From NCBI RefSeq assembly GCF_014202075.1, contig NZ_JACHFZ010000002.1, forward strand, positions 434,001 to 498,000: a DNA stretch of 64,000 nt. The letters run 5' to 3'. Shown here piece by piece: positions 34,226 through 57,628 of the stretch. Source of the stretch: Brevundimonas basaltis. Lineage in GTDB: Bacteria > Pseudomonadota > Alphaproteobacteria > Caulobacterales > Caulobacteraceae. Position 1 is the stretch's first letter, and each line of letters starts with the position of its first letter. The notes beneath the pieces are model-generated. The model did no database searches. It had not been told where the DNA came from and saw only the letters and a program-made list of their open reading frames with translations. Both the position numbers and the translations under genes were made by a program.

Positions 34226-34301
34226 GCCGCTTTAGCTCAGCTGGTAGAGCATCGCATTCGTAATGCGGGGGTCAGGTGTTCGAGTCACCTAAGCGGCACC
34301 A
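34226..34301 (+). tRNA. tRNA-Thr (anticodon CGT)
   Basis: 76 bases forming a complete cloverleaf: acceptor GCCGCTT/AAGCGGC, D-arm GCTC..GAGC, anticodon stem TCGCA/TGCGG with loop TTCGTAA (anticodon CGT, reads ACG), T-arm AGGTG/CACCT with loop TTCGAGT, discriminator A and encoded CCA. It is the integration site of the tandem elements downstream, and its 3' half is repeated at 55145. Confidence 0.97.
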
Positions 34302-34433: not shown

Positions 34434-35306
34434 TCAATGACGAGTGGGCGGCGCGCCGATCAGCCATTGAAGTGCGAACAGAATGGCACCGCTCAGGCCC
34501 ACGGTGAGCGACCACACGACGATCTGCCGAAGCCCTACCAGAACCTCCGGCGTCTGCGCGACCCCGTCGATGACGAGCGGACGAGTGAAGCGCAGCCACC
34601 AGACCCGCAGATGGTCTGTCCACTGCGGATCGCCGTCCAGCGCCGTGCACTCGAAATACGACATCATAGCGCGCCAGTGGCCCGCCGTGACGCTGGGTGC
34701 CTGCAACGACCTCGGAGAGCGATAGTGCTCCAGGACAAGCATCGTCTCCTTCGGGGTGAACCCCTCGCTGCGCGCCGGCGCTAGCATGCAGAGCACCGTC
34801 CCTCTCTCCGTGCGATGATAACTCAGTGAGGCCCCCGACTCGACGAGCAAGCGGACATGACTGACAGGAAGGCCGACTTCGGAAGGGGCAGGTTCGACAA
34901 TCTGATCCACCGGGCGACTGCCGTAAAACACGTCGAACTGCCGGCGATCGTTACCGCCCATCCTGCCGCCACACTGAACGTAGAAGCTGTAGGCGGACGA
35001 GAAATAGGCATGGCGTTCGTCGCTATCCGCCAAACGGTTGAACCAGCGTTCGGCCATCAATTCGCAGAACTGTTCAAAGTCGCGTTTGCGGATCCACCGT
35101 CGGTTTCGTCGGTCGGCTACCGTCACGCTGAACGCCTCTCTCGCAAAGAACGCGCGCACTCGGAGGAGGCTTCGCTATTCGTTTGTAAACAGGTAGGTCC
35201 GACCGATCATCCCCAATCAGTCTGGTCTCCGATGGCGTACCAGAACCGGCCGTCTTGAGAAAAGCAACGCAATACCCTTGAGCAGCGTCGGAGTCAGAAG
35301 CGGACC
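34398..35306. repeat. 16-bp inverted repeats flanking a single-gene cassette
   Basis: GGTCCGCTTCTGACTC at 34398-34413 and its exact reverse complement GAGTCAGAAGCGGACC at 35291-35306 bound a 909-bp segment holding only the 34434-35159 gene. No transposase and no clear target duplication are visible. Confidence 0.7.
34434..35159 (-). CDS. Hypothetical protein with C-terminal membrane helix
   Basis: 241 residues from ATG at 35159. It starts MRAFFAREAFSVTVADRRNRRWIRKRDFEQFCELMAERWFNRLAD, is largely soluble and Arg/Trp-rich, and ends in one membrane helix IVVWSLTVGLSGAILFALQWLIG (tail-anchored). No family recognised. A perfect 16-bp inverted repeat (34398-34413 and 35291-35306) flanks the gene, marking it as a discrete cassette in the att-proximal slot of element 1. 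Confidence 0.65.
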   Translation of the reverse strand: MRAFFAREAFSVTVADRRNRRWIRKRDFEQFCELMAERWFNRLADSDERHAYFSSAYSFYVQCGGRMGGNDRRQFDVFYGSRPVDQIVEPAPSEVGLPVSHVRLLVESGASLSYHRTERGTVLCMLAPARSEGFTPKETMLVLEHYRSPRSLQAPSVTAGHWRAMMSYFECTALDGDPQWTDHLRVWWLRFTRPLVIDGVAQTPEVLVGLRQIVVWSLTVGLSGAILFALQWLIGAPPTRH

Positions 35307-35522: not shown

Positions 35523-38500
35523 ATGTCCAGCGAAGATGTAGTGGTGCCGGCTACGGAGCCGGTGTCAGTGTTCCAAAGCGATCTGCCGATCGACGCAAAA
35601 CTAGAACGAGCGCGAACTGAGTTGCTGGACCTCTCGGCCCGCAATCGGTTGCTGAACATTCCGCGTTCAGCGAAGAGCGCCAAAACGCTCGAAATCGTGG
35701 ATGAGCGCGGTGCGGAGGTGTTTCGCCTGCTCTCAAAGGACGGCAAGGCCTTCACTTTTTTGGCAGGCCGCGGCGAGGTCGAGGAAGGCGAAGATGAGAT
35801 CGCCGAACTCGTTCAGCCGGACGAAGACGGCGTAGACAATCGAGGCGTTTCGAACCGCCACTCTGATACCCGCCTGCAAACGAGACTGACGCCGGCAGGT
35901 CTTCAGAAGAAGCTGCTGGATCTCTATTACGACGCTCGCACACTCGAAGAGGAGCAGGGGGTAAACATCCTGTTCCTTGCGATCGGTACGCTGAAATGGA
36001 TCGATCCAAACAACGCGACAGTGAGCCGGTTTGCACCGCTCATTCTGGTCCCGGTGGAGCTGGAACGCGGCAACGCGGCCGAGAAGTTTAAGCTGAAATC
36101 CCGCCAAGAAGATTTTGCGGCGAACCTTTCGCTGGAAGCTTACCTAGATCGCGTTCATGGCGTGAAGCTTCCAACATTTGAAGCTGGGGACGACTTTGAT
36201 CCGGTGGTCTACGCAGCCGCAGTGGCGGACGCTGTCTCTGCCAAGCCGGGATGGGCGGTCGACCTAGACGATGTCGTGCTCGGCTTCTTCTCGTTCGCCA
36301 AGTTTCTGATGTATCGGGACTTGGACCCGCAGACATGGCCGGCGAACGCTAAGCTGTCAGACCATGCTCTCCTGAAGCCCCTGATGACCGAGGGCTTCGC
36401 CGAGGGCGAGCCGCTGCTGTCCGAAGACCAGTCCGTCGACGACCACGTGTCGCCCTCACAGATGGTCCATATCGTTGACAGTGATAGCTCCCAGACACTG
36501 GCAGTCGAAGAAGTGCGGCGGGGTCGCGATCTAGTTATCCAGGGGCCACCCGGGACAGGTAAATCGCAGACGATCGCGAACATAATCGCAGCGGCCGTCG
36601 CGGACGGTAAGACCGTCCTATTCGTGGCCGAGAAGATGGCGGCGCTTGAGGTGGTCAAGCGGAGGCTCGACAGCACCGGCGTTGGCGATGCCTGTCTAGA
36701 ACTGCACAGCAACAAGGCAAACAAGCGGGCGGTCTTGGAGGAGCTTCGCCGGACGTGGGAGCTTGGCGCTCCCCGGGCTGACAACCTCGCTGTGCTCAAC
36801 GCGCGGCTCACGGATGCCCGAGATCATCTGAATGCACACGCTGAAAGACTGCACCGCCCGCTCGGTCAGTCGGAATACACGCCGTATGACGTAATCGGGC
36901 ATCTTGTGCGTCTACGTCACGCCGGGGTGAAGCCTGCCTATTTGAGACTCGAAGGCCCTGAGTCTTGGTCACGCGAGGATTTCGACAAGCGCTCTCGTCT
37001 GGTTTCGGAGTTGGCTGAACGCGTTCTCGACCTTGGTTCCCCGGGCGAGCACCTATGGCGAGGCATCGATCTCGACCGTGCATTGCCACCAGAAATCGCG
37101 CGGATCGAGGCCCGACTTTCTGGCTTGGCCGATCAGCTGTCGCGCATCCGTTTCGACCAGGGTGAGGTCGCAACGATGCTGGAAAAGGACGCGCCTTCGT
37201 TGGCGGATCTCGAGGCCGTCCTCGAACTCGCAACAAGGATCTCGACAGCTCCGGATCTTGAGCCCGACGCTCTCGCCTCTGAAGCTTGGGACAAGCCTGA
37301 CGATGTCCGAGCTTTGGTAACGGCAGGTTCGGACTTGGAAGCCCTGCGTGCATCTCTCGACTTCAAAATTTCGGCCGCCGCTTGGGATACGGATGTCGAG
37401 GAGATTGCCCGGGCCCTTGAACCTCTCGACCAATCAACACCGGTCGAGGCGTTCGAGCGAGCTCGTAGCCTGTCGGAGCGAAGCCCGACCATCACCGATA
37501 CCGCCGTGCGACTCGCCAAAGCTCTTGGCCGAAGCGAAACACCCACCTCGATATCAGCGCTCGAGACGTTGGCGCAGGTCGGCGACCGAGTGGCAGACGC
37601 GCCTGAGGCCGATGCGTCCGCATTTGCCCAAGACCTTTGGGACGGCGGAGTTGACCGGGCTTCTGACCTAGCGAATGCCGTCAAAGGTCTAGAGGACGCA
37701 CGTTCAGAAATCGGGTCGGCACTTAGCGATTCAGCGTGGAACGCTGATCTTTCCGACGCCAGACGAAGCCTTGCCACACACGGCACCTCGCTGTTCCGCG
37801 TTTTCAACAGCGAATGGCGTTCAGCAGACAGGCTTGTCCGCTCATATCTCTCCGATCCGAAGGCCCCGCTTCAGCGTAGGCTCGGTTGGCTCGACGCCTT
37901 GGGGCGCGGCCAAGGTGCCCAAAAGCTCATTAGAGACGATGACCAGTTTGGCCGATCCGCCTTTGGTAGCGACTGGCGAGCGGAACGCTCCTCGTCCGCG
38001 CCGCTCCTTGCCCTCGTCGAATGGATGCGCAGCCTAAAGGGCCTGGGCGCTGAGCCTCGGCTTATCGTCGGACGCAAGCCTGATCGGTCGAGAGTCGGTG
38101 AACTAGCCAAAACATTGACCGCCCAGTTGCAGGCGGCCCGTAGTGAGTTGGCGGACCTCTGGGAGGATCTTGGCACGGCGCGTTCGCTAGTGTTCGGCGG
38201 CGTTGAAACAGTGTCGGACACTGTGCTCACTACTGCGGGCGAGGCAGCTTCGGGGCTGGCCGGCGCCCATGCCGGCTACTTGGCGCTGGCTGTCGCGGAT
38301 GAGGCGTCGTTGGATGCCCGCCGGCAGAACCTTTCAGAACTGATGCGCGGCCAAGCGGCATTGAAGGCACTTCGCGCGCAGGCGGCGATGGGACACAGCG
38401 CTTTCGGAAAACAGTGGCACGAGACCAAGTCCGATTGGGAGTCGCTCTCGGCCATTGTCGATTGGGTTGATAGCAACCGGGATATCCGCGTCCTTGCCTC

Positions 38501-41500
38501 TCGAGTACCGGAGAGGTCAGCAGTTCCTGCGCGCTGCGAAGCGATCATCGTCGCGCGAGACGCTTGGCGAGACCTGCTCGCGGCTGCGCTGGCGGACTTA
38601 AAGGCTACGTCGGAAGCAGCACTCACTACCGAAAACGCACTGACCTTGGCGAGTTCCGAAACCTCCAGCCGGCTGACCGCTTGGCAGAATGGCGGCGAAG
38701 CCTTGACGACTTGGGTGAGTTATCGGGCACGCGCGCATGAAGCCAACTCGTTGGGTCTTCAAGACGTGGTTGACCGCTTGCATAGCGGCGGTCTTGCTCC
38801 CATCCAGGCTCTACCGGATTTTGAACAGGCCTTTTTCGAGGCGGTACTTGAGTATCAGATCGAAGAGGAACCAGAATTGGCGACCTTCGATGGAGAGCTT
38901 CATGGTCGCAAAGTCCGCGACTTTGTCGACCTCGATCACCAGCGGATCAAAGCGGCCGCCATGCAAGTTGCGCTGGAGCATCATCGCCGCGTTCCGCCGA
39001 GGAGCGGCGGCGCGGTTGGACCTCTGGGCGTCCTGAAGGGCGAGATGGCTAGGAAGCGGGGGCACATGCCTATCCGCCAACTTATGCAGAAGGCATCTCA
39101 GCCGATCCAAGCGCTTAAGCCGGTCTTCATGATGAGCCCGCTTTCCGTGGCTCAGTTTTTGCCACCCGGCGCACTGACCTTCGACTTGCTGGTCATGGAT
39201 GAGGCGAGCCAGATTCAGCCTGTCGATGCTCTGGGCGCGATCGCTCGGTGCAAGCAGGTCGTTGTCGTGGGTGATCCGCAACAGCTTCCGCCGACCTCCT
39301 TCTTTGCAAAAATGACGGGTCAGGCCGACGGCGACGAAGACGATGGACCGGCACGTGTCGCCGACATCGAAAGTATCCTTGGCCTTTTCACAGCGCGCGG
39401 GCTGCCCATGCGCATGCTTCGTTGGCACTACCGCAGCCGGCACGAATCCCTCATCGCGGTCTCCAACCGGCAGTTCTATGAGAACAAGCTGGTCATCATT
39501 CCGAGCCCGTACACGTCCCAATCAGGACTAGGGCTGCGCTTCCACCACGTTAAGGACGGCGTCTTTGAGACGGGCACTACCCGCACTAACCCCGTGGAGG
39601 CCAAGATTGTCGCGGCGGCAATTATCCACCACGCCAAGACCTCGCCAAAGCTATCCCTCGGTGCAGTTGCCTTCTCGTCTGCCCAGCGCAAGGCGATCCT
39701 CGAGCAACTGGAACTCCTACGTCGGCAACTTCCGCCAGAGGACGAAGCCTTCTTCCAAGCCCACCCATCGGAACCCTTTTTCGTCAAGAACCTCGAGAAC
39801 GTTCAAGGCGACGAACGTGATGTGATCTTCATATCCGTAGGCTACGGCCCGACCACCCTGGGCGGAAGGCCGCCAATGCGCTTCGGCCCTGTTGGCCAAG
39901 AGGGCGGAGAACGGCGGCTAAACGTACTTATCAGCCGGGCCAAACGCCGGTGCGAGGTGTTTTCGTCCATGACCGACGAGGACATTGATCAAGACTTCGC
40001 AGCGACCCGGAAGGGCGTATTTGCGCTCAAGCTGTTCATGCATTTTGCCCGAACCGGCCGGATGTCGTTGGCCGAGTCGGTCGGTCGCGACACCGACGGG
40101 ATTTTTGAGGAGCAAGTTGCTCTCGCGCTCCAAGGGCGGGGTTATCTAGTTCATCGGGACGTCGGTGTTTCCGGGCTCTTCATTGACATAGCCGTGGCTG
40201 ATCCTAATCAGCCTGACCGTTACCTGCTGGCCATTGAGTGCGACGGCCCCTCATACAAGAAGGCTCGATCCGCAAGGGATCGTGACCGTTTGCGCCGCAG
40301 CGTTTTGGAGGGTCAGGGTTGGTTCGTCCATCGCATCTGGAGCGGCGACTGGTTTAAGCGCCCACAAGAGCAACTCGATCGAGTCTTTGCTGCAATAGAG
40401 GCGGCCAAGGCCGAATTAGCTCGAGAAGGTCAGGCCAAAGATCGGCTGCCCGCCTACGAGATTGTTTCGGTCGAGCGCGACACGGTCACAGAGATGGGGC
40501 TTGCCGGGGTAGAAGAAATTCACGCCCTCTCGACCCCGTATGTCGAAGCAAGCCTGACCAAGCCGACCCACCTGTCCCTCGAAATTCACCATACGCCCAC
40601 TGGCATCTTGTCCCAGCTTGCGGAGCAGGTGGTTGCAACCGAGGGCCCGGTACATTTCGATGAAATCGTAGCGAGGGTCCGAGATGCTTGGGGCCTCGCC
40701 CGAGCCGGGGTTAGAATTCGGGACGCCGTACAACGAGCACTCGACGTGTCCGTCAGACAAGGGCGGGTCCTGGAGGCCGACGCCTTCTACACCGCACCCG
40801 GTGCAGACATTGTCGTGAGGGATCGCAGCAGCGCGCTGTCGCCTACCCTGCGCCGACCTGAGTTGCTCCCTCCGACCGAGATCGAAGCCGCTCTGTTGAG
40901 CGTCGTCTCGCGGAACTTCGGAGCCACAGAAGATCAAGCGGTGCAAGCGGTGGCTCGCGGGTTCGGCGTGAAGTCTACGTCAGCGCAGCTCAAAGATTTG
41001 ATCTCGGAGGTGGTTACTTCTGCGATCGAACGCGGGACGCTGGCCCGCAGAGATGCCCTGATTGACGTGGGCCCGAATGCCCCGAAGCTGGAGCGAGAAC
41101 CTCAGAAGCTTCCGATTGAGCTCTTGGTCGCAAAGGGAGAAGGAGAGCAACTTGAGTTCAAGCAAACTCTCCGGTGGGACGTCCGCCAAGAAGCCCTACA
41201 CAAGCGGCTTGAGGACCAGTGCCTGAAGGCTATTGCCGCCTTCACCAACTACAAAGGCGGCACTCTCCTGATCGGCGTCTGTGATGACGGTGCCGTGCCC
41301 GGATTGGACGCGGACTTGGCAACCTTCGGGGGAAGCCGAGATAAGTTTGACCTGCATCTCACGAACCTGATCAAGGACCGGTTTTCCGAGAGCTTCCGCG
41401 CCGGTTGCGTCTCGGTCTCCTATCCCACGGTCCATGAGAAGCTGGTCTGCCGCGTAGATGTGAAGCGCTCGCGCAAGCCTGTCTATCTGGCCATCTCAGA

Positions 41501-41609
41501 CGGTGCGGGCGCAGCGACGGACCGATTGATTGTTCGCGCCGGAGCATCGTCGCCCGAGATTCCGCTGAGTCAGGTGGCCGCCTATGTGCGCGAGCATTTT
41601 GACGGCTGA
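35523..41609 (+). CDS. Giant SF1 helicase-nuclease with C-terminal Schlafen AlbA_2-like domain (candidate defence protein)
   Basis: 2028 residues from an ATG with GAGAGG 8 bp upstream. Domain order: DUF4011-like N-terminus (LERARTELLDLSARNRLLN near residue 20); helicase Walker A GPPGTGKS near 341; a long helical insert of about 800 residues; Walker B LLVMDEASQIQP near 1225 with GDPQQLPPTSFF; AAA_12-like half with MLRWHYRSRHESLI, NVQGDERDVIF and RRLNVLISRAKRRCEVF; a Vsr/DUF559-like nuclease (FIDIAVADP, LAIECDGPSYKKARSARDRDRLR near 1570); a DUF3320-like segment; and an AlbA_2/Schlafen-like domain near 1876-1990 (GEGEQLEFKQTL, KGGTLLIGVCDDG). DUF4011/DUF3320 helicases are found in defence regions. 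The role is inferred. Confidence 0.88.
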   Translation: MSSEDVVVPATEPVSVFQSDLPIDAKLERARTELLDLSARNRLLNIPRSAKSAKTLEIVDERGAEVFRLLSKDGKAFTFLAGRGEVEEGEDEIAELVQPDEDGVDNRGVSNRHSDTRLQTRLTPAGLQKKLLDLYYDARTLEEEQGVNILFLAIGTLKWIDPNNATVSRFAPLILVPVELERGNAAEKFKLKSRQEDFAANLSLEAYLDRVHGVKLPTFEAGDDFDPVVYAAAVADAVSAKPGWAVDLDDVVLGFFSFAKFLMYRDLDPQTWPANAKLSDHALLKPLMTEGFAEGEPLLSEDQSVDDHVSPSQMVHIVDSDSSQTLAVEEVRRGRDLVIQGPPGTGKSQTIANIIAAAVADGKTVLFVAEKMAALEVVKRRLDSTGVGDACLELHSNKANKRAVLEELRRTWELGAPRADNLAVLNARLTDARDHLNAHAERLHRPLGQSEYTPYDVIGHLVRLRHAGVKPAYLRLEGPESWSREDFDKRSRLVSELAERVLDLGSPGEHLWRGIDLDRALPPEIARIEARLSGLADQLSRIRFDQGEVATMLEKDAPSLADLEAVLELATRISTAPDLEPDALASEAWDKPDDVRALVTAGSDLEALRASLDFKISAAAWDTDVEEIARALEPLDQSTPVEAFERARSLSERSPTITDTAVRLAKALGRSETPTSISALETLAQVGDRVADAPEADASAFAQDLWDGGVDRASDLANAVKGLEDARSEIGSALSDSAWNADLSDARRSLATHGTSLFRVFNSEWRSADRLVRSYLSDPKAPLQRRLGWLDALGRGQGAQKLIRDDDQFGRSAFGSDWRAERSSSAPLLALVEWMRSLKGLGAEPRLIVGRKPDRSRVGELAKTLTAQLQAARSELADLWEDLGTARSLVFGGVETVSDTVLTTAGEAASGLAGAHAGYLALAVADEASLDARRQNLSELMRGQAALKALRAQAAMGHSAFGKQWHETKSDWESLSAIVDWVDSNRDIRVLASRVPERSAVPARCEAIIVARDAWRDLLAAALADLKATSEAALTTENALTLASSETSSRLTAWQNGGEALTTWVSYRARAHEANSLGLQDVVDRLHSGGLAPIQALPDFEQAFFEAVLEYQIEEEPELATFDGELHGRKVRDFVDLDHQRIKAAAMQVALEHHRRVPPRSGGAVGPLGVLKGEMARKRGHMPIRQLMQKASQPIQALKPVFMMSPLSVAQFLPPGALTFDLLVMDEASQIQPVDALGAIARCKQVVVVGDPQQLPPTSFFAKMTGQADGDEDDGPARVADIESILGLFTARGLPMRMLRWHYRSRHESLIAVSNRQFYENKLVIIPSPYTSQSGLGLRFHHVKDGVFETGTTRTNPVEAKIVAAAIIHHAKTSPKLSLGAVAFSSAQRKAILEQLELLRRQLPPEDEAFFQAHPSEPFFVKNLENVQGDERDVIFISVGYGPTTLGGRPPMRFGPVGQEGGERRLNVLISRAKRRCEVFSSMTDEDIDQDFAATRKGVFALKLFMHFARTGRMSLAESVGRDTDGIFEEQVALALQGRGYLVHRDVGVSGLFIDIAVADPNQPDRYLLAIECDGPSYKKARSARDRDRLRRSVLEGQGWFVHRIWSGDWFKRPQEQLDRVFAAIEAAKAELAREGQAKDRLPAYEIVSVERDTVTEMGLAGVEEIHALSTPYVEASLTKPTHLSLEIHHTPTGILSQLAEQVVATEGPVHFDEIVARVRDAWGLARAGVRIRDAVQRALDVSVRQGRVLEADAFYTAPGADIVVRDRSSALSPTLRRPELLPPTEIEAALLSVVSRNFGATEDQAVQAVARGFGVKSTSAQLKDLISEVVTSAIERGTLARRDALIDVGPNAPKLEREPQKLPIELLVAKGEGEQLEFKQTLRWDVRQEALHKRLEDQCLKAIAAFTNYKGGTLLIGVCDDGAVPGLDADLATFGGSRDKFDLHLTNLIKDRFSESFRAGCVSVSYPTVHEKLVCRVDVKRSRKPVYLAISDGAGAATDRLIVRAGASSPEIPLSQVAAYVREHFDG

Positions 41610-41682
41610 GTGATCAGTACCGCGTCCAAGTTATTTGCGGATCGCGAGTTCTTGACGGGGCCGATCCAGGGGAGGGGATTCT

Positions 41683-43044
41683 ATGACGAAGTTGCCATCC
41701 ATCCTTAACAGGGGCGAGCCTTCTCGTCTCTTTCCAGTGCTCGCTGACACATCAAAAGAGGGCCGGACGCTCTCGATCTTCCTCGCCTGTCTCGAGAACG
41801 TCGATGAGTTCGGCAGAGCTATGATGGCTAGCCTCGATCAGCGGATGGGTGTTCGGGCAAGGATCGAAACCTACACGGAAGTCGGGCTCCAAAAGACCAT
41901 CGCGGGGGCGAAGCATCGACCTGATGGTTTGGTCGTGGTGAGCACGGGCAAGTCAACGTGGACAGCTTTGGTCGAGGCGAAAGTCGGCGCTGCTGAGCTG
42001 ACCAACGAGCAAATCGAAGCCTACCTAAGTTTGGCCAAGCTGAACGGCATTGACGCCGTCATCACGTTATCGAACCAGTTCACCTCCTTGCCGACCCACC
42101 ATCCCTTGGCTGTAAGCGGAGCGCTTACCCGCAAAGTGGACCTGTTCCACTGGTCTTGGGGTTACGTGATCACGCAAGCCCACGTCCTGCGAGAGACAGG
42201 GGACGTTGCTGATCGTGAACAACTCCTCCTCCTCAGCGAACTGCAGCGGTTTCTGCTCCACCCAAGCTCGGGAGTGAAGGAGTTCGATCAGATGCCAGCC
42301 GCTTGGGCTGAGCTTTGTGCCAAGGTTAGTGCCGGGGCGCTTCCGACCGCCAGAGCAATCGAAACCCAGCAGGTTGTCGGTGCTTGGCATCAAGTTCTTG
42401 AGCGAGTGACCTCCGTGCTCAGTCGCCAGTTGAACGATCATGTCGAGGTGCAAATGTCGCGCGCTGAAGCGAGCGATCCAGCCGTTCGTATGAAGGGCTC
42501 GCTCGAAAGCCTTACGCGTGAGGCTTGCCTTACGAACCACCTTCTCGTTCCCGCCGCCGCTGCGCCAATCCAGATTTCTGCGGACCTTCGAAAACGTGCG
42601 GTCAGCCTTCATATGCGGCTGAAAGCGCCCGCCGATCGTCAGTCGACGAAGGCGAGGGTGTCATGGCTTTTGCGGCAGCTAGCTCAGACGGAAGTGCGCG
42701 ATGTGCACGTCAAACTCCTATGGCCTGGCAGGGCAGCGGCCACTCAGTTCCCGCTGGCGAAGTTGCGGGACGCACCGGAGTTGGCGAGCCAAGACCGGGA
42801 GGGAATGAGCGTTCTTTCATTCGAGGTTCTGCTCGTGAAGGACTTGGGAGCCAAGTTTGCTCAGCGCAAAATTGTTGTGACTGAGCTGATCAAGGCTTCG
42901 ACAGAGTTTTATAACGGTGTGGGTAGCAGCCTGACTGCGTGGCAAGCGAAGCCTCCCAAGATCTCAGATGCCAAGCTGGCACCAGCGTCAGTCAGCGCCG
43001 AAGCTCTGAGAGAGCAGGTGGAGCAAGAGGCGCTAGATCGCTGA
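41683..43044 (+). CDS. PD-(D/E)XK-like nuclease-domain protein, partner of the giant helicase
   Basis: 453 residues. The N-terminal third has a nuclease-like core: AKHRPDGLVVVSTGKSTWTALVEAKVGAAELTNEQIEAYLSLAKLNGIDAVITLS, i.e. an Asp, then ExK after a hydrophobic strand, then a helix with Gln, as in PD-(D/E)XK folds. The rest (about residues 150-453) is not recognised: a helical region, then a beta-rich segment RKRAVSLHMRLKAPADRQSTKARVSWLLRQL. It lies 73 bp after the helicase on the same strand, so they are likely cotranscribed as a two-gene system. Confidence 0.75.
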   Translation: MTKLPSILNRGEPSRLFPVLADTSKEGRTLSIFLACLENVDEFGRAMMASLDQRMGVRARIETYTEVGLQKTIAGAKHRPDGLVVVSTGKSTWTALVEAKVGAAELTNEQIEAYLSLAKLNGIDAVITLSNQFTSLPTHHPLAVSGALTRKVDLFHWSWGYVITQAHVLRETGDVADREQLLLLSELQRFLLHPSSGVKEFDQMPAAWAELCAKVSAGALPTARAIETQQVVGAWHQVLERVTSVLSRQLNDHVEVQMSRAEASDPAVRMKGSLESLTREACLTNHLLVPAAAAPIQISADLRKRAVSLHMRLKAPADRQSTKARVSWLLRQLAQTEVRDVHVKLLWPGRAAATQFPLAKLRDAPELASQDREGMSVLSFEVLLVKDLGAKFAQRKIVVTELIKASTEFYNGVGSSLTAWQAKPPKISDAKLAPASVSAEALREQVEQEALDR

Positions 43045-45493: not shown

Positions 45494-46080
45494 ACACCGT
45501 TCAAACGGGGAATGATCCAAGGCGACCGGCAGAAGGTGGTTTCAGCCGGTCGCCAGCTCAAGTCCTACGGGAAGGTACGTTCGGTAGCTTAAAATGCCGG
45601 CGTAACAAGTAATAGGCGTCCGCAGGACAGATTTATTTTCCCACCGTTACGCGCGATAACTCAGCAATCGCTCCAAAACTCCCGAAAGTGGCGAATTATG
45701 CCTTTGACATCCTTCTCGGCGGGTGGTTGTCAGAAGGTCCAGCGCCGCCGCTAGGCGAAAAGACATGCTGAGAAGGGCTCGCCGGACCAGGCCCGCCCCC
45801 CGCTACGTCGCGGGGGGTCTCGTTCTTCCCGCAAGTGCGGATGCCTACCCCCCCGGTCCTCCCCTCTCATCGTAAATACTCAAATGACAAACGATCTCGA
45901 TCGTTCGGACGATGACGCCTGCCCGTCACCGAAGCCGAATGATCAAAAAGCCAAACCCCGCATCCATGATGCGCCCGGCGACACTCCCCAGTCTGGCGGC
46001 ACGGTCGCGCTCTGATCCGAGTGAGTCTGCTTCGGATGCCGCCGGCGGATGCGTCGGCAGAACCTGTGAGGACAGGAGAA
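45494..46080. other. 587-bp gene-poor stretch with two hairpins
   Basis: A perfect 10-bp stem (GGCGACCGGC 45521-45530 with GCCGGTCGCC 45545-45554) follows the secreted-protein gene, and CCCCCCGC/GCGGGGGG (45796-45803, 45810-45817) precedes TCTCGTTCTT, a plausible terminator. A 43-codon ORF (45884-46015, MTNDLDRSDDDACPSPKPND) is possible but lacks a ribosome-binding site. The region may contain the promoter or origin for the replication gene. Confidence 0.45.
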
Positions 46081-47316
46081 ATGAACATAAGAAAAGAGAT
46101 CGGGCCATTCCCGGACCGTCCGCCCCCAAGGTCGGATCGCCCGCCGGCCACGATCGCCAACGTCGAGCACCTACTGGAACATGCTGGCATCAAGGTGCGC
46201 TACAACGAGGTCAGCAAACGCGACGAAATCTTGCTCCCCAACAAAACGGGATCAAGAGACAACGTCGACAACGTCACCCTCACCTACATCATCAGTCTGG
46301 CTGCTGAGCACCACATACCCACCGGCAATGTCCCGGGTTTTGTGGAGGCCATCGCCAACAAGAATGCGTACAACCCAGTCCAGGACTGGATACGCAGTCG
46401 ACCATGGGACGGCACAGATCGACTGCCTGACGTCTACGGGACCGTCGTTCAGGCGGAAGGGTACCCCGAAAGCCTGAAGGAGATCATCCTGCGGAAATGG
46501 CTTCGCAGTGTCTCAGCGGCGGCAACCCGAAACAACTTTCGGAGCCGAGGCGTCCTGACCCTTCAGGGGGCACAGGGCGCTGGAAAATCCAGCTGGATTA
46601 AAGCCTTGATCTCCGACCCGGACCTGGCCGATGGCGTGATCAAGCTTGGTCACCACATGGACCCGTCCAATAAGGACTCCCTTATTGGAGCCATAGGGTT
46701 CGCGATCACCGAGATCGGCGAGCTCGACAGTTCGTTCAAGAAGGACATCGCTCGGCTAAAGGGCTTCCTGACGGATGACACTGACCGGGTTCGTCGGCCT
46801 TACGATCGTCGGGAGTCGAGCTACCCCCGACGGACGGTGTTCGCTGCGACCGTCAACGAGCACCAATTCCTACAGGACCCCACCGGGAACACACGCTTCT
46901 GGACCATCCCGGTCGCGTCCCTGAACTGGCAACACCAGATCGACATGCAGCAGGTGTTTGCTCAGCTAGCTCAGGAGGTGGAGGAAGGCGAGACATGGTG
47001 GTTGGCAGACGACGAGGAGGCCCTGCTTAACGACCTGAACTCGCGTCACAGCACCGCCAGCCCCGTAGCTGAACGACTGGCGGAGATGGTCGATATCGAC
47101 CGCATCGGCGCAGAAGGTCTTGCTGCAATGTCGGCCAGCGAGGTTCTCGAAGCGCTCGCTTTCCCGCTAACCAACCCGATGGCGCGCGAAGCTGGGGCCG
47201 CTCTAAGGAACCTCCTGGGCGACCCAAAGAAGATCAACGGTACCATGAAATGGCGTGTGCCCGTCCGCGACGTCGACGGATCCAACCCTGCTAAGCCGTG
47301 GGGGAAACCGTACTGA
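46081..47316 (+). CDS. VapE-family replication NTPase (D5/SF3-like)
   Basis: 411 residues from an ATG with AGGACAGGAG upstream. The virulence-associated-E domain is recognisable: NPVQDWIRSRPWDGTDRLPDVYG, then LTLQGAQGAGKSSWIKAL (Walker A near residue 165), IGFAITEIGELDSSFKKDIARLKGFLT, RRPYDRRESSYPRRTVFAATVNEHQFLQDPTGNTRFW. VapE proteins are replication/helicase-like NTPases of phages, PICIs and other satellites. No primase domain is visible in this copy. It likely drives element replication after excision. It replaces the unrelated primase-like protein of element 2. Confidence 0.9.
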   Translation: MNIRKEIGPFPDRPPPRSDRPPATIANVEHLLEHAGIKVRYNEVSKRDEILLPNKTGSRDNVDNVTLTYIISLAAEHHIPTGNVPGFVEAIANKNAYNPVQDWIRSRPWDGTDRLPDVYGTVVQAEGYPESLKEIILRKWLRSVSAAATRNNFRSRGVLTLQGAQGAGKSSWIKALISDPDLADGVIKLGHHMDPSNKDSLIGAIGFAITEIGELDSSFKKDIARLKGFLTDDTDRVRRPYDRRESSYPRRTVFAATVNEHQFLQDPTGNTRFWTIPVASLNWQHQIDMQQVFAQLAQEVEEGETWWLADDEEALLNDLNSRHSTASPVAERLAEMVDIDRIGAEGLAAMSASEVLEALAFPLTNPMAREAGAALRNLLGDPKKINGTMKWRVPVRDVDGSNPAKPWGKPY

Positions 47317-47807
47317 ACCGCGCCCGGACCGGGGCACCGGGAGGTGGGGGGAGGGGGTAGAGAAAAGCTTGAGATGATCGGTCCGAAAGACCGATCAAGA
47401 CGGCGAATCTCCCGCCCCTCCCCCCCACCACCTTCTGGCTGCCGCCCGGCGTGCGACGCCGTCTGCGGCTCTTCCATTGTCTTGATGTCCGCTCCCCGGT
47501 GGCGTCCCCCAGCGGCACCGTCGGGGGCACCCTGGACGCCTCCCACCAACTCGCCCGCCGGCAGTTGCTAGCCTCGGCTGCGGCAGGATTCCGGCGAGCC
47601 GAGGGGGCCGAAACGTGGTCCCGGGGCGGCCGTCCGGCCCCCGCCGATCACCCCACCATCCCCGCCCCCGACGCGTGGCCCCTGCGGCCCACTCTGGGGC
47701 ACCGCGGGCCCGACCCGCTCCAGACGACCCACCCTAATCGACCGCCTTCCCGGGCCGCCTGACGGCGCTCGCCCGTGGAACATCAAACATGCAAGGAGAC
47801 TAATCCC
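47317..47807. other. Gene-free stretch with conserved GC/pyrimidine-rich block (47655-47775)
   Basis: 491 bp without a credible ORF. The last part, 47655-47775, is nearly identical to 61946-62066 before the element 2 integrase (for example CCCGACGCGTGGCCCCTGCG and CCTGACGGCGCTCGCCCG). It is rich in C and G with G/C-run dyads. Conservation in front of both integrases suggests a promoter/operator, origin or integrase-binding region. Confidence 0.7.
47375..47397. repeat. 9-bp-stem hairpin after VapE gene
   Basis: TGATCGGTC (47375-47383) and GACCGATCA (47389-47397) are perfect complements around CGAAA. No T-run follows on the plus strand, so it may be a protein-binding dyad or an origin structure rather than a terminator. 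Confidence 0.55.
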
Positions 47808-48962
47808 ATGCCCAAGGCCAAACTCGACCACGCCTTTGTGTCCACCGCGCAATGCCAGCCCGGCAAAGCCAAAACCGACTGGTACGACACGATCGTCACC
47901 GGCTTCGTCTTCGAGCGTCGTTCCAGCGGCGGCGGCACCTACTACTTCCGCTTCTCCGATGCCGCCGGTCGGCAGGCTCAATATAAAATAGGCGGTGAAA
48001 CGGACATCAGCTTTGCAGCCGCAAAGAAGCGCGCGGTGCAGCTCAGGTCCGAGGTCGTCATGGGCGGCGACCCGAGGGCCAAGAAGGCAGAGGCGAAGTC
48101 CATACCTCTGTACAAGGAACTCTCGGCCATGCATCTCGCCGACGCGAAGCTCACGCAGCGGTCCTACTCGACGACTGAGGCTTATGTCAGAATCCATGTG
48201 ATCCCTAGGTGGGGAAAGGTCCGGCTCACCGACATCGAACCGCGCGCCATCTCCCAGTGGCTCGGCGAGAAGCGAGCCGAAGGACTGGCACCGGCGACGG
48301 TCGAAAAGATCAGGGTGATCTTCGGCCGATCCTTCGAGCTCGGCGCTAGATGGGGCGTCCCCGGGACTGACAAGAATCCGGTCAGGGCGGTGTCCAGGAA
48401 GCCCTTTCAGAACGCGAAGGAGAGATATCTCAGTCGGGAAGAATCGATCAGGCTTCGAGAGGCAGTCGCGCAGTCGCAGAACACCCAGCTGCAACATGTC
48501 GTCGGCCTGCTTCTGCTGACAGGTGCCCGGGTTCGCGAGCTCCTGGACGCGAAATGGTCAGACGTGGACGTCGAGCGTAGATCTTGGCTGATACCCACCT
48601 CGAAAACAGGGAAGCCACGCCACGTCCCGCTCTCGACGCCGGCGATCGCGATCATAGAAGCCCTTCCTCGCTTCAAGGACTGCCCTTTCTTGATACCGAA
48701 CCCTGACACCCTGAAGCCCTTCGTGTCGATCAAGCACAGCTGGCAGCGGGCGATTAAGGTGGCGAAGCTGCCCGGTCTGAGAATCCACGATCTCAGGCAC
48801 TCGGCGGCGTCCTTCATGGTCAACAGCGGTGTCGACCTGTTCGCCGTCGGCAAGGTGCTGGGTCACGCTAGTTACCAGTCAACCCAGCGGTATGCGCACC
48901 TCGCCAACGACACCTTGCTCGCCGCCGTCGAGGCGGGTGCCGCGAAACAGGCTGCGGCCTAA
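47808..48962 (+). CDS. Tyrosine recombinase/integrase of element 1
   Basis: 384 residues from the ATG at 47808 (AAGGAG upstream). The N-terminal arm-type DUF4102-like domain (DWYDTIVTGFVFERRSSGGGTYYFRF) and SAM-like core-binding domain are followed by the catalytic domain with all residues: Arg in LTGARVRELLDAKW, Lys in PTSKTGKPRHV, HDLRHSAASF, LGHASYQST and the nucleophile Tyr in QRYAHLAND. About three quarters identical by eye to the integrase at 62095. It should recombine at the tRNA-Thr att sites, though it lies about 6 kb from the nearer att. Confidence 0.96.
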   Translation: MPKAKLDHAFVSTAQCQPGKAKTDWYDTIVTGFVFERRSSGGGTYYFRFSDAAGRQAQYKIGGETDISFAAAKKRAVQLRSEVVMGGDPRAKKAEAKSIPLYKELSAMHLADAKLTQRSYSTTEAYVRIHVIPRWGKVRLTDIEPRAISQWLGEKRAEGLAPATVEKIRVIFGRSFELGARWGVPGTDKNPVRAVSRKPFQNAKERYLSREESIRLREAVAQSQNTQLQHVVGLLLLTGARVRELLDAKWSDVDVERRSWLIPTSKTGKPRHVPLSTPAIAIIEALPRFKDCPFLIPNPDTLKPFVSIKHSWQRAIKVAKLPGLRIHDLRHSAASFMVNSGVDLFAVGKVLGHASYQSTQRYAHLANDTLLAAVEAGAAKQAAA

Positions 48963-49526: not shown

Positions 49527-49637
49527 CAGAGCGGGCATTGAGCGCACGTGCGCAAAGGGTCGGAAGCGGGCGTTGGTTAGATCCAGTGCTACAAGCTATG
49601 CCACCAGTTCTTGCGCGAACCATCCCGAGGTCCCGAA

Positions 49638-50396
49638 GTGCGGCGATACCTAATCATCGGAGTAGTCGCTTTCCTTGCAAACTGCGAGCAAGCGCCAGAA
49701 GCTCCGACTGCAGCAGCCCTGATCCGAGACGGTGTCCCGACGGCGTGCTCACATCCGGCGACCATGGCGGCGCTCAAGTCCGAAACCGGCGAATATGAAG
49801 GCGAGATTGGCTCAATTACCTTCGCGGGACGGGATGCCGCTCTTTATCAAGTCAGTTGCGAAGCAACGATCGGTGAGGCGTCGGTAAGCTATCAGGTCAG
49901 AGAAAACTTGGCCCTCCCCGGCGCAGTAACCGTTATCGTCGCCCGCTCTCCCGCTTCTTCGGCCCCCTCTCCCGCGAGCAGCGCACCATCCGCTCCGAAG
50001 CCGCGTCCGGTGTTGGCGTCGGCGCGAGGTCACACCTTTGACGTGCCGACCAACTACCCTGCGGCATTCTCCCTCTGGCGTCAGCAAACGGCTAGCCTTC
50101 CCCTTGAGGGCCGTCCGTGGGTTAGATCGCTTCGCGGGACCGCTGCGGAGGTGCGAAGTGTGCGCGTGGATGGCAGCGAGTATCTGTATGGCTGGGTCTG
50201 CGAGCCCCATAACTGCGGCGGAAACGAAGTTGCTCTGCTGTTGACCCGCGACCAAGGCAGAGTGGTTGGCCTCGTCCGACTGACCAATGAAAATCGTGAA
50301 ACCAACGACTTCCAAGTGGGGTCGCCAACTGCGCCTGAGGCTCGTTGCCTGCGGTTCTTCCTAGAGGATCGTTCCGACGCCACGCGGTGCTTCTGA
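49638..50396 (+). CDS. Lipoprotein with Ivy-like (lysozyme inhibitor) C-terminal domain
   Basis: About 252 residues from the GTG at 49638 (MRRYLIIGVVAFLANCEQ), a lipoprotein signal with lipobox LANC. The C-terminal 120 residues hold WVCEPHNCGGNEVALLLTRDQGRVVGLVRL, close to the CKPHDC block and following strands of Ivy, the periplasmic inhibitor of vertebrate-type lysozyme. The N-terminal domain (ALIRDGVPTACSHPATMAALKSETGEYEG) is separated by a Ser/Ala/Pro linker. Its role could be protection from host, predator or phage lysozymes; that is inferred. Confidence 0.75.
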   Translation: MRRYLIIGVVAFLANCEQAPEAPTAAALIRDGVPTACSHPATMAALKSETGEYEGEIGSITFAGRDAALYQVSCEATIGEASVSYQVRENLALPGAVTVIVARSPASSAPSPASSAPSAPKPRPVLASARGHTFDVPTNYPAAFSLWRQQTASLPLEGRPWVRSLRGTAAEVRSVRVDGSEYLYGWVCEPHNCGGNEVALLLTRDQGRVVGLVRLTNENRETNDFQVGSPTAPEARCLRFFLEDRSDATRCF

Positions 50397-50544
50397 CCGG
50401 GTGCGGGTGAGGACGTGTCTTTCTCCGCGGAGGCCCACCGAACCGGGTTAGTTCATTATGTCGGCCATCGTTAGATCGCAGAGTTATTGGTGGCTGATGC
50501 GCAACCGTGGCCCTATAAATCGGTAGGCCTTGGGGGAGGACGCA

Positions 50545-51870
50545 TTGAACCACGATCCGCGAGGATATTACGCGTCCTTGGAACTTCCGACGGACGCCAG
50601 CGCAACCGCGATCAAGGCTTCCTACCGGCGACTGGCCAAGCAACTGCACCCTGACCGCAATGCTGATCCGACTGCGGCTTCTAAATTCTCCGCTTGCAGC
50701 GAGGCGTATGCGGTCTTGGGGGATCCCGACAAGAAGGCGGCCTACGATAGCGCCGTCTATGAAGAGGCCGCTGCCCATCAAGAAGACGAGCCGCTCGAGC
50801 CCATCCATTGCTCGTCGTGCCGCAAACCTACGGCACAGCCCCGCAACGTCATTTTTAGAAGCGTCGTCAGCGTCGTCATCACCACGATAACTACGCCCGT
50901 TCAGGGCATATTCTGTTCAGTCTGCGCGAGAAAGGCTGGGCTTCGGGCATCAATTGTTTCTGGCCTGTTTGGGTGGTGGGGTGTCCCTTGGGGTCCAATT
51001 CTCACTGTCAAAGAGATCGTCCGAAACTCCATGGGAGGCGAGCGGAAGCCGGAACTCGACGACCGGCTGGCCTACTACAACGCCGTTGCCTTTGGGTCCC
51101 GGGGGCACCTCAACCTTGCTCACGCGATCGCCCGACAGTTACGCAACGCGAAGGACGAAGGCTTGGCCCTGGACGCCCTCAGGCTGGTGGATCATTTGGA
51201 GCGCGCCGGGGTTCCGAAAAGCGGTCCTGCGCTCAAATCCGGCTGGGAAAATAAGGCCGACCATTGGTTGGTCCATGGAGCGTCCTTGCTAGCCGTTCCC
51301 GCCGCCATTCTGCTGGCGATTGTGATGACGAGCGGCGGGAGCTCGCGTGCAGCGGCGGGGCAGCCCTATTCGCCCTACGACTACACAACGCCAAGACCTT
51401 CGAGGGCCGTCACACCCCCGAACCTCCCCGCGGAGCCAATGCCCTCAGTCCCGGTCTGTTCGGACCCGCCCAAGAACGGCGATGAGTTGCAACGTGACGG
51501 TTTCAAAGAGGACGGCCATCGCATCACGATCGATAATGGCGGATCGGGCAATGCCTTGGTGAAGGTCCGGAATGATACCGGACGGCGCGTCGCCACCCTC
51601 TATGTCGGCCGCGCTCAGCAGGGCTCGATCAACGATCTGCCAGACGGTCGATACCGCATTTCGTTCGCGGTCGGGGACCAGCTCGATGCATCATGCGCAG
51701 CCTTCGCTGGCGACTTCCAGGCGCAGCAGTTTCCTGGGGTCGAGACGTTCGAAACGAGGGTTGAGGGAGACCAAATTATCAGCAGCCACCTCCGCCTGAC
51801 GCTTCACTCGGTCACCGGGGGTAACGTCCGCCCACAAGGGTTAAGCGATGCCGCCTTCGACGCGGACTGA
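50545..51870 (+). CDS. J-domain (DnaJ-like) membrane protein
   Basis: 441 residues from a TTG with GGGGGAGGA about 6 bp upstream. The J domain covers residues 5-70 (DPRGYYASLELPTDASATAIKASYRRLAKQLHPDRN with HPD). Then cysteine pairs CSSC and CSVC form a possible zinc site around a hydrophobic stretch, followed by a transmembrane helix (LLAVPAAILLAIVMTSG) and a C-terminal beta domain (ALVKVRNDTGRRVATLYVGRAQQGSINDLPDGRYRI). J domains recruit Hsp70. It heads a cluster with SPFH, zinc-ribbon, YbjQ and SHOCT proteins. Confidence 0.85.
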   Translation: MNHDPRGYYASLELPTDASATAIKASYRRLAKQLHPDRNADPTAASKFSACSEAYAVLGDPDKKAAYDSAVYEEAAAHQEDEPLEPIHCSSCRKPTAQPRNVIFRSVVSVVITTITTPVQGIFCSVCARKAGLRASIVSGLFGWWGVPWGPILTVKEIVRNSMGGERKPELDDRLAYYNAVAFGSRGHLNLAHAIARQLRNAKDEGLALDALRLVDHLERAGVPKSGPALKSGWENKADHWLVHGASLLAVPAAILLAIVMTSGGSSRAAAGQPYSPYDYTTPRPSRAVTPPNLPAEPMPSVPVCSDPPKNGDELQRDGFKEDGHRITIDNGGSGNALVKVRNDTGRRVATLYVGRAQQGSINDLPDGRYRISFAVGDQLDASCAAFAGDFQAQQFPGVETFETRVEGDQIISSHLRLTLHSVTGGNVRPQGLSDAAFDAD

Positions 51871-52107
51871 CCTCCTGCGCGCTGCTTGGGAGACTCCGCC
51901 GGGGATCGGTATCGGCGGCCTCCAAAGCCATCGGTCGATCGACTTGGATCGAGGCACCTGACGAGCAATTTAGGTTGTACTTGTCTCTCGATCCACGGAT
52001 GTATAGCTCGGACCTTGGGGGCGCATCGGCGGCACGTGAGTGCGGTGTCGGTGACTCGGTGTCTGACGAAGAGGGGCATTGACCCTATCAGTTCAGAGGG
52101 GATTGGC

Positions 52108-53271
52108 GTGGGACTAGTTAGAGCGGCGTTCGGAGCGATCGGCGGCTCTCTGGCGGATCAGTGGAAAGATTTCCTGACCATCCCTGCGAACTTGCCGCCC
52201 ACGGCCGCACTTTTTCCTGCTGTCCCTGCCGGCACCAACGCCGGGCGCGGGTCGAACGTTCAAGCCTCCCGCTCGATCATCACGAACGGCTCTCGTCTCG
52301 TAGTTCCCGAAGGCTACGGACTGCTGCTCCTCCAAGACGGTGAGCTAACTGGGTTTGCAAGCGACCCCGGCGGCTACGTCTGGGAGTCAGAGAACGTCGA
52401 GTCCCAATCCTTGTTTGCAGGTGACACGATTGCGGCTTCGCTCGTGCGACAGTCATGGGAACGTTTCAAGTTCGGCGGGCGGCCTAGCGGCCAACAGCTC
52501 GCGCTTTTCGTCAGCCTAAAAGAGCTCCCCCACAACAAGTTCGGGACCCAATCAGAAATCTATTGGGACGACGCCTATCTCAACGCACAAGTGGGCGCGA
52601 CGACCAGAGGCACCTACAGCTTGAGGATTGTGGACCCCATCCTCTTTGCGAAACAGTTCGTCCCGGCGTCTTATTTGCAGGGGCAGGATTACTTTGATTT
52701 CACAGACCGTGAAAATGCTGCAGCAAATCAGCTCTTTTCCGAGGTGGTTGGCTCTCTGGCCGCAGCCTTCAGCATTTACACAAACGATGCCGGCAAAGGG
52801 AACCGCATCACCAAAATCCAACAGGATTCGGTCGGCTTCGCTGCCTCGCTCGGGCAGGCAGTCGAGGACGGATATCAATGGCTGGGAACGCGTGGGCTTG
52901 CCATAGCCAAGGTCGCCATTCTCGGGATTGAATACGATGAGCAAACGCGAGATTTGCTCAGGACGGTTCAGCGCGCCGACGCCCTGACTGGCGCTCGCGG
53001 AAACGCCAACCTTCAAGCTTCCGTTGCCTCGGGCATAGCCTCCGCTGGAGAAAGTGCCGGCACCGGAGGGCTTCTGGGCATGGGCATCGCCGCAGGTTCA
53101 ATGGGGCTGTCCGACCTGATGCAAAAATCCCCCCCAGCGGACTCCGCATCCAGTGGTCGGGCCAGCCAGGATCTGGTCATGGTTCTCGAGAATTTGAAAC
53201 GGGCTCTCGACGCCGGGCTGATTGATCAGTCTGAGTTCAACGCTGCAAAGGCCCGAGCGCTCGGGCTCTAG
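52108..53271 (+). CDS. SPFH-type protein with C-terminal SHOCT-like segment
   Basis: 387 residues from a GTG with AGAGGGG upstream. The pattern SIITNGSRLVVPEGYGLLLLQDGELTGFASDPGGYVWESE followed by GATTRGTYSLRIVDPILFAKQFVP is that of YdjI/virion-core-like SPFH proteins that form membrane-associated rings. The C-terminus LENLKRALDAGLIDQSEFNAAKARAL is a SHOCT-like short helical hairpin. A Gly/Ser-rich linker joins them. Likely membrane-surface scaffold. Confidence 0.8.
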   Translation: MGLVRAAFGAIGGSLADQWKDFLTIPANLPPTAALFPAVPAGTNAGRGSNVQASRSIITNGSRLVVPEGYGLLLLQDGELTGFASDPGGYVWESENVESQSLFAGDTIAASLVRQSWERFKFGGRPSGQQLALFVSLKELPHNKFGTQSEIYWDDAYLNAQVGATTRGTYSLRIVDPILFAKQFVPASYLQGQDYFDFTDRENAAANQLFSEVVGSLAAAFSIYTNDAGKGNRITKIQQDSVGFAASLGQAVEDGYQWLGTRGLAIAKVAILGIEYDEQTRDLLRTVQRADALTGARGNANLQASVASGIASAGESAGTGGLLGMGIAAGSMGLSDLMQKSPPADSASSGRASQDLVMVLENLKRALDAGLIDQSEFNAAKARALGL

Positions 53272-54938: not shown

Positions 54939-55144
54939 TCCCGTCGCGCCATGAGCGGCAGTTCCGCAGGTATGGCGCAGGTCGGGATTTCGTCCGTTCC
55001 CACGTTAAATCGCGCAACTTAGGAAGCGGCCCTGCCGACCCCTCGGGCCAATCTGGGAAGAGCCTGGGTTGGGGTGCTGAACGTCTCTAAAATTCGGCTC
55101 AGAACCATTGTCCATAAGGCTTTCCCGACGGGGGTGGAGTAGCC

Positions 55145-55191
55145 TTCGTAATGCGGGGGTCAGGTGTTCGAGTCACCTAAGCGGCACCACC
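55145..55191 (+). repeat. Attachment site copy 2 (tRNA-Thr 3' fragment)
   Basis: Exact copy of 34257-34303. Upstream bases do not continue the tRNA, so this is only a 3' fragment, the junction between elements 1 and 2. Confidence 0.93.
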
Positions 55192-56326: not shown

Positions 56327-57628
56327 TCATGCCTTGAGCAGTTCCACCACCACATCTGCCAAGCTGTCCCACATCGACATCAGGTGCTCGGGCGACGGTG
56401 CGAAGTTGGGAGAATGAACGTATCGGTTCAGCGTGTCCGCAGAGACCAGCTTGTCACCCTGCTTGAATTTTTTGAGCACCTCCACCTGCTTGCCGTCGAT
56501 CTTTCCTGCCGCCTTCAGGTGCAGTCCGGCTTTTTCCAGCCGGCTTGCGAGCTTGTCTCCCTCTTGGACCGCTACGCCCGCCCTCTGGATATAGTTCTCC
56601 AAGGCGAGTTCGATCAGCACACGCAACAGGACTGAGACTGCGTTCGGGTGCTTGTGAAGATCCAGATGAAACTGCAGCTCTTCAAAAATCTGATGGTGGC
56701 GCTGAAGACGGCCTGGCCAGACAAGGCCAAAATCCTTCTGCGGGATGAGGGTTGTGCGGACCGTTGGCGTCGCTTTCGCGCTAGGCTTTACCTTGGCCGG
56801 CTTCGCGGAAGGCTTAGACCCGCCTGGAGACGCAGGCTTTGCGGGATCGGGCAGTATGCCTTCACCTTCCAGCTTATCTAAGTAGTTCGTCTTTCCGTCG
56901 GTGTCCCAGACGTGCCCCAAGACCAGCTTCCGGTCGGTCAAATCCTTGGCGATGCGGGCGAGCGCCGCGAGGGATTTTTTCTCATCCGATGTGAAGTGGA
57001 ACCGGCCGCCCTTCATGCTGATCCCGACACGCTGACGGAGAGGTTCCGCCGACAGAAGCCGATTGAGTGTTGATCGCTGGATCTTACGACGTGAAGGCAG
57101 CAGGTTTGCTTCGGCCAACCGCTTCTCGATCTCGTCAGCGACACTTGGACCACCGCCCTTGCCCGTGCGGTTGACGAAGGTCGACGTCATCCGGTCGTCC
57201 CACGTGCTCTGGCCTATTCCTTTCTGCACACCGGTGTGGCGGCGGAAAAGGATTTCATCGATGCGTTCGCGATCGGTCTCGACCTGACAGGTGATTTCCT
57301 TCGGAAAGGCTCCTTTCCAGAGCGCCCGCTGCTCTCGGAAGAAAGTCTGCAACTCGGTCGTCGGAGCGCGGCGCGGGTCATCGAGCAGCTTGAGGCACGT
57401 CACGCGTCTGTTGCCGTCGAAGACTGTGAACTTTGTCTTCTCCGGTGAAACGAGCGGATATTCGTAAATCTCCCCCTGCTCCACGATGTCCTTGGCGAGA
57501 TTCCGCATATGGGTTTCGCGCTCTTTGAAGAGCCAGGCGATCGCAGCGGTCTCGTTCTCCAGCTCGCCGTGCCGGTCATTGGCGCGGTTCACGAGAAGCG
57601 AGTTCAGCGGAAGCTTTCTTATAGCCAT
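56327..57628 (-). CDS. ParB/sulfiredoxin-like N-terminal domain protein
   Basis: 433 residues. The N-terminus has a ParB-like nuclease/CTPase-fold pattern: MAIRKLPLNSLLVNRANDRHG, RNLAKDIVEQGEIYEYPLVSPEK, and FTVFDGNRRVTCLKLL (GNRR box near residue 70). The central region is helical and basic, then a Pro/Lys/Ala linker (PAKPASPGGSKPSAKPAKVKPSAK), and a helical C-terminal domain (VLLRVLIELALENYIQRAGV...). Not a chromosomal partition ParB. First gene of a minus-strand pair with mrr; a specificity or modification-sensing role is inferred. Confidence 0.78.
   Translation of the reverse strand: MAIRKLPLNSLLVNRANDRHGELENETAAIAWLFKERETHMRNLAKDIVEQGEIYEYPLVSPEKTKFTVFDGNRRVTCLKLLDDPRRAPTTELQTFFREQRALWKGAFPKEITCQVETDRERIDEILFRRHTGVQKGIGQSTWDDRMTSTFVNRTGKGGGPSVADEIEKRLAEANLLPSRRKIQRSTLNRLLSAEPLRQRVGISMKGGRFHFTSDEKKSLAALARIAKDLTDRKLVLGHVWDTDGKTNYLDKLEGEGILPDPAKPASPGGSKPSAKPAKVKPSAKATPTVRTTLIPQKDFGLVWPGRLQRHHQIFEELQFHLDLHKHPNAVSVLLRVLIELALENYIQRAGVAVQEGDKLASRLEKAGLHLKAAGKIDGKQVEVLKKFKQGDKLVSADTLNRYVHSPNFAPSPEHLMSMWDSLADVVVELLKA

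Follow-up and report, generated by a model that had tools for sequence, protein, structure and literature searches.

Two defence catalogues already hold models close to the giant gene described here: the NCBIfam model for the anti-phage protein ProA (NF058533; curated NCBI cut-off 1500 bits) and PDC-S37 of PADLOC. A third model, the DUF4011 anti-phage protein Hhe (NF042953; cut-off 2000 bits), shares homology with it in the DUF4011, helicase and MTES_1575-type nuclease regions. The HEPN-linked proteins of the MTES_1575 type likewise combine a Vsr REase with an SF-I helicase and a DUF3320/wHTH segment (PMC3710099). Hachiman HamAB, a sensor helicase with an effector nuclease (PMC12278908), offers an analogy only, and we claim no family relation to it.

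We analysed a 64,000-nucleotide stretch of the Brevundimonas basaltis genome (the window), in which two co-oriented reading frames of 2028 and 453 residues, 73 bp apart, were confirmed where the first-pass annotation had placed them (Table 1). Judged by profile matches, the larger protein is a member of both the ProA and PDC-S37 catalogues; what is new relative to those models is its C-terminal AlbA_2 tail and the second gene.

Table 1 Features of the locus, in window positions unless marked G000:C2
Feature	Position	Strand	Basis or remark
Left att core, 3′ part of tRNA-Thr(cgt)	34254..34301	+	= G000:C2:468254
ProA/PDC-S37-type helicase-nuclease with C-terminal AlbA_2, 2028 aa	35523..41609	+	ORF; Pfam, PADLOC and NCBIfam profiles
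DUF4011 domain, aa 33-208	35619..36146	+	Pfam 2e-42
Walker A GPPGTGKS, aa 341-348	36543..36566	+	Intact; conserved in G061
Helicase second half: Walker B VMDEASQI, GDPQQLPP, NVQGDERDVIF, RRLNVLISRAK	39192..39944	+	Pfam; motifs all intact
MTES_1575 / Vsr-like REase, aa 1528-1625, FIDIAV...AIECDG	40104..40397	+	Pfam 1.5e-32
DUF3320 segment, aa 1688-1734	40584..40724	+	Pfam 4.6e-15
SLFN_AlbA_2 domain, aa 1873-2010, EGEQLEFK and LLIGVCDDG motifs	41139..41552	+	Pfam 9e-12
453-aa protein: N-terminal PD-(D/E)XK nuclease (D81, E98, K100, Q110) and C-terminal alpha/beta domain	41683..43044	+	Alignment, predicted structure
VapE-like backbone gene of element 1	46021..47316	+	Pfam 1.7e-47
Tyrosine integrase of element 1	47775..48962	+	Pfam 6.1e-26
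Second att core, junction of elements 1 and 2	55142..55189	+	= G000:C2:489142
Third att core	G000:C2:500800		Outside window

A ProA-type giant with an AlbA_2 tail

The 2028-residue protein runs from DUF4011 through a split SF1 helicase (AAA_11/AAA_30/AAA_19 and AAA_12), MTES_1575 and DUF3320 to AlbA_2, each above its Pfam gathering score. The domain list of the first-pass annotation holds except for DUF559, a cross-match below the Pfam threshold. The helicase and nuclease motifs (Walker A, Walker B, GDPQQLPP, NVQGDERD, RLNVLISRAK and FIDIAV...AIECDG) are intact. We prefer the ATG at 35523 to an upstream TTG as the start, because the 70% identical homologue in genome G061 aligns from about there and because the purine-rich GGGAGAGGG stands before it. 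Between the left att core and the helicase, and divergent from it, lies a gene for a 241-aa protein (34434-35159, minus strand) with a C-terminal hydrophobic stretch and no Pfam match.

Against NF058533 the helicase scores 1582.9 bits (1584 in the genome search) and clears the ProA cut-off narrowly (1583 vs 1500 bits). Coverage of the model is partial: the helicase aligns across model positions 350-1902, the match beginning at position 353. It lacks the first ~350 positions of the model and is therefore named ProA-type rather than ProA itself. The same N-terminus is missing from another helicase just over the cut-off (L112, 1506.5 bits). The PADLOC search that had been proposed returned PDC-S37 for the helicase at E=0 (1854 bits in three stretches, the best spanning 640-1543 of 1550) and no model for the 453-residue protein. 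From the matched length, which reaches profile position 1543 of 1550, the helicase and PDC-S37 would share the same core from DUF4011 to DUF3320; the PDC-S37 model, however, stops short of AlbA_2. Identity with Hhe was rejected (1034 bits against the cut-off of 2000), and the helicase is ~35-39% identical to the annotated Klebsiella Hhe. Compared with the HEPN-linked MTES_1575-type proteins, the helicase, Vsr-REase and DUF3320 parts are the same, but AlbA_2 stands where those proteins have HEPN and transglutaminase. We also looked for a partner model, 'ProB', beside NF058533 in the NCBI numbering; the accessions next to it are those of HyoA and of an unrelated family, with no match. A viral origin was likewise rejected: neither protein has relatives in IMG/VR, and among phage records the nuclease has none and the helicase three partial matches only.

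The last ~170 residues, AlbA_2 included, extend past the ends of both the ProA and PDC-S37 models. AlbA_2 (PF04326) scores 46.0 bits in the window helicase and 41.7 in the G061 homologue, against a Pfam gathering score of 25.3. Across the ~780 genomes sampled in the order and class, G061 is the only other one with such a tail on such a helicase; its protein is 70% identical over the full length and keeps the whole architecture. The closest plasmid relatives (50-54% identity) end before the tail. Both tailed helicases conserve the motifs EGE(Q/R)LEFK and LIGV(C/S)DDG, and sequence matches to the PDB are weak. The residues that we take to be a putative AlbA_2 catalytic triad are assigned on the model of the mammalian Schlafens. 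In G061, uvrC lies directly upstream of the helicase and no gene of the 453-residue type accompanies it. The place that the nuclease gene has in the window is there occupied, starting 13 bp after the helicase, by a gene for a 201-aa protein (L111:5862-6467, minus strand) that looks TerB/BRCT-like by eye and has no Pfam hit.

The neighbouring PD-(D/E)XK protein

The first-pass annotation had read a nuclease signature, RPDG...VEAK, in the second gene. Alignment of 48 homologues bears this out, with D81, E98, K100 and Q110 invariant. In the predicted structure (built from 7 sequences, mean pLDDT 67.5), strands at 82-87 and 92-100 and a helix at 108-120 set these residues in the usual PD-(D/E)XK frame. 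Residues ~22-196 of this model, at that pLDDT of 67.5, resemble many restriction enzymes, among them PaqCI, AspBHI, MspJI, FokI, EcoT38I and BamHI, with modest Z scores of about 5-6.5. The invariant residues, the strand and helix frame and the restriction-endonuclease matches over 22-196 are the reason that we call it a PD-(D/E)XK protein and a putative nuclease. Foldseek gave no hit at E<=0.001, no sequence relatives were found among solved structures, and no family matches in Pfam, PADLOC or PHROGs, the NCBIfam match being at chance level. For the C-terminal half, a YbjN/chaperone-like fold was considered and not used, its matches (up to Z 8.3) being about background.

Homologues also occur on 11 plasmids of Rhodococcus and Streptomyces, nearly all annotated as TerD family protein. 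Fusions on actinobacterial plasmids carry TerD at residues 6-171 (Pfam 2e-43) and the region like the 453-residue protein at 274-686. Two such proteins lie at L009:11182-13278 and L010:10843-13227, the former near SIR2, ThiF and Mov34/MPN genes.

A variable nuclease slot in tandem tRNA-Thr elements

The tRNA-Thr att core (46-48 bp) is present in three tandem copies, which therefore delimit two tandem elements of 20.9 and 11.7 kb that have backbone stretches in common at roughly 70-83% DNA identity. The att-proximal slot holds the helicase and nuclease pair in element 1 and Mrr in element 2, as the first-pass annotation had proposed. Sister elements occur in two of 130 other genomes of the genus, with VapE 86-88% identical. 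In the same slot, one carries a type I RM system (hsdR, hsdS, hsdM) with a DUF5655/NucS-like gene and the other a GIY-YIG gene with a PDDEXK_1/RNase_H_2 (RecB-like) gene. The content of the slot thus varies yet bears nucleases in all four elements, which speaks for a role in defence on grounds other than the profiles.

The pair is foreign cargo: its genes have a GC content of 60.4 and 58.2% against 68.4% for the core, and GC3 is 66% in the cargo compared with 93% in one core gene. The distal cargo of element 1 (49611-53271) encodes an Ivy-like lysozyme inhibitor domain, a DnaJ-domain protein and a protein with weak Band_7/SPFH and SHOCT matches. In element 2, a gene for a 433-aa protein with no Pfam match (56327-57628, minus strand) adjoins Mrr.

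A possible optional partnership and its proposed working

Membership of ProA and PDC-S37, together with the changing restriction and nuclease cargo of the sister-element slot, makes the giant helicase-nuclease very probably an anti-phage protein, and the candidacy for defence put forward earlier is upheld on both counts. The epithet 'undescribed' is upheld in part: the helicase is catalogued, and the second gene and the AlbA_2 tail lie outside the models. We think it rather probable that the locus is a ProA/PDC-S37-family anti-phage helicase-nuclease with an extra AlbA_2 module and an accessory PD-(D/E)XK nuclease, carried as defence cargo of a tRNA-Thr element.

How far the two genes belong together is the main point of dispute. 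They may be independent defence genes that happen to occupy one cargo slot, the ProA-type helicase-nuclease being self-sufficient and the nuclease beside it acting solo, and we regard this as a real, if lesser, possibility. It would fit G061, where the full helicase, AlbA_2 included, stands without the nuclease, and it would fit the genome samples. Among 398 genomes of the order, the nuclease family is found in 22 and the helicase (E<=1e-100) in 25, with both only in the window's own genome where 1.3 others would be expected; among 385 genomes of the class, the counts are 22 and 10 (E<=1e-150), with both in two other genomes, on separate contigs (0.5 expected). No excess of co-occurrence appears in either sample. 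The nuclease family, present in about 5% of the sampled alphaproteobacterial genomes, is mostly solo, and its solo copies have no recurrent neighbour among 106 neighbouring genes, the recognisable ones being mostly metabolic and a handful matching PADLOC. The gap of 73 bp is no sign of tight coupling either. The two-gene system of the first-pass annotation thus faces the very finding that it had named as telling against itself; what sustains it is the closest subfamily, which is paired with helicases in two separate configurations.

The closest nuclease clade (64-69% identity) argues against independence, being joined to a DUF4011 helicase in three of five resolvable loci, a contig-edge locus (L004) being left out. 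In Sphingomonas (L003), Croceicoccus (L005) and Sandaracinobacteroides (L007), which represent three families, the helicase follows just downstream of the nuclease in the same direction; L006 and L008 have the nuclease without it. The alignable DNA of L003 and L005 is the two-gene block only, with unrelated flanks, and the block shared by L005 and L007 extends from ~35 bp upstream of the nuclease gene to a point within the helicase. In L007 the helicase reading frame continues into a TrwC relaxase-like region (L007:11446-16938), as in a broken or rearranged paired helicase. In the window, moreover, the genes lie on one strand with no promoter-like or terminator-like site between them and terminator-like sites downstream of the second. 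The order is reversed relative to the window, where the helicase comes first, and the three helicases, ~39% identical to that of the window, form a distinct, fully supported clade; on the helicase tree the pairing takes no fewer than two changes. Since the paired helicases fall in separate clades, pairing either arose twice or the helicase partner was swapped. The simplest reading of these comparisons is either an optional partnership formed twice or such a swap; the pairing is plausible but not obligate, and chance co-residence in the cargo is possible.

Two other roles were weighed. The helicase-nuclease might work in DNA repair or in maintaining the chromosome instead of in defence, in keeping with the G061 homologue, which directly follows uvrC and precedes the small TerB/BRCT-like gene, and with another DUF4011 gene, which belongs to the conserved core and borders a defence hotspot in P. 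aeruginosa (PMC10250203). Its patchy distribution (25 of 398 order genomes), foreign GC, mobile-element location and listing in two defence catalogues make this very unlikely. That the 453-residue protein is a Ter-type stress protein partner and not a defence nuclease, as the plasmid fusions to an N-terminal TerD domain might suggest, is highly improbable: TerD is absent from the window protein, and even the fusions keep the invariant nuclease residues.

We return to the preferred reading, an AlbA_2-bearing anti-phage helicase-nuclease with an accessory nuclease. In the scheme we infer, from its trigger and substrates to any contact or cooperation between the two proteins, the DUF4011/SF1 motor would use ATP to recognise, or translocate on, abnormal (infecting) nucleic acid, and the Vsr-like nuclease would then cleave the recognised DNA, both steps being modelled on the protein families concerned. 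AlbA_2, if it has the activity assumed from its family, would be an added nucleic-acid-binding or RNA-cleaving effector acting on RNA or DNA, and the 453-residue protein would give a further restriction-type cut, swappable among such helicases. A bolder version, which we consider unlikely, is a modular unit in which DUF4011 helicases twice recruited an otherwise solo PD-(D/E)XK family, in opposite orders, and one lineage added AlbA_2, giving a three-nuclease machine against DNA and RNA.

The nuclease family, with no entry in Pfam, PADLOC or NCBIfam, is flagged as worth functional work. The locus shows that ProA-type giants, which the catalogues list as single-protein models, can acquire a Schlafen-type effector domain and can occur with an uncatalogued nuclease family beside them.
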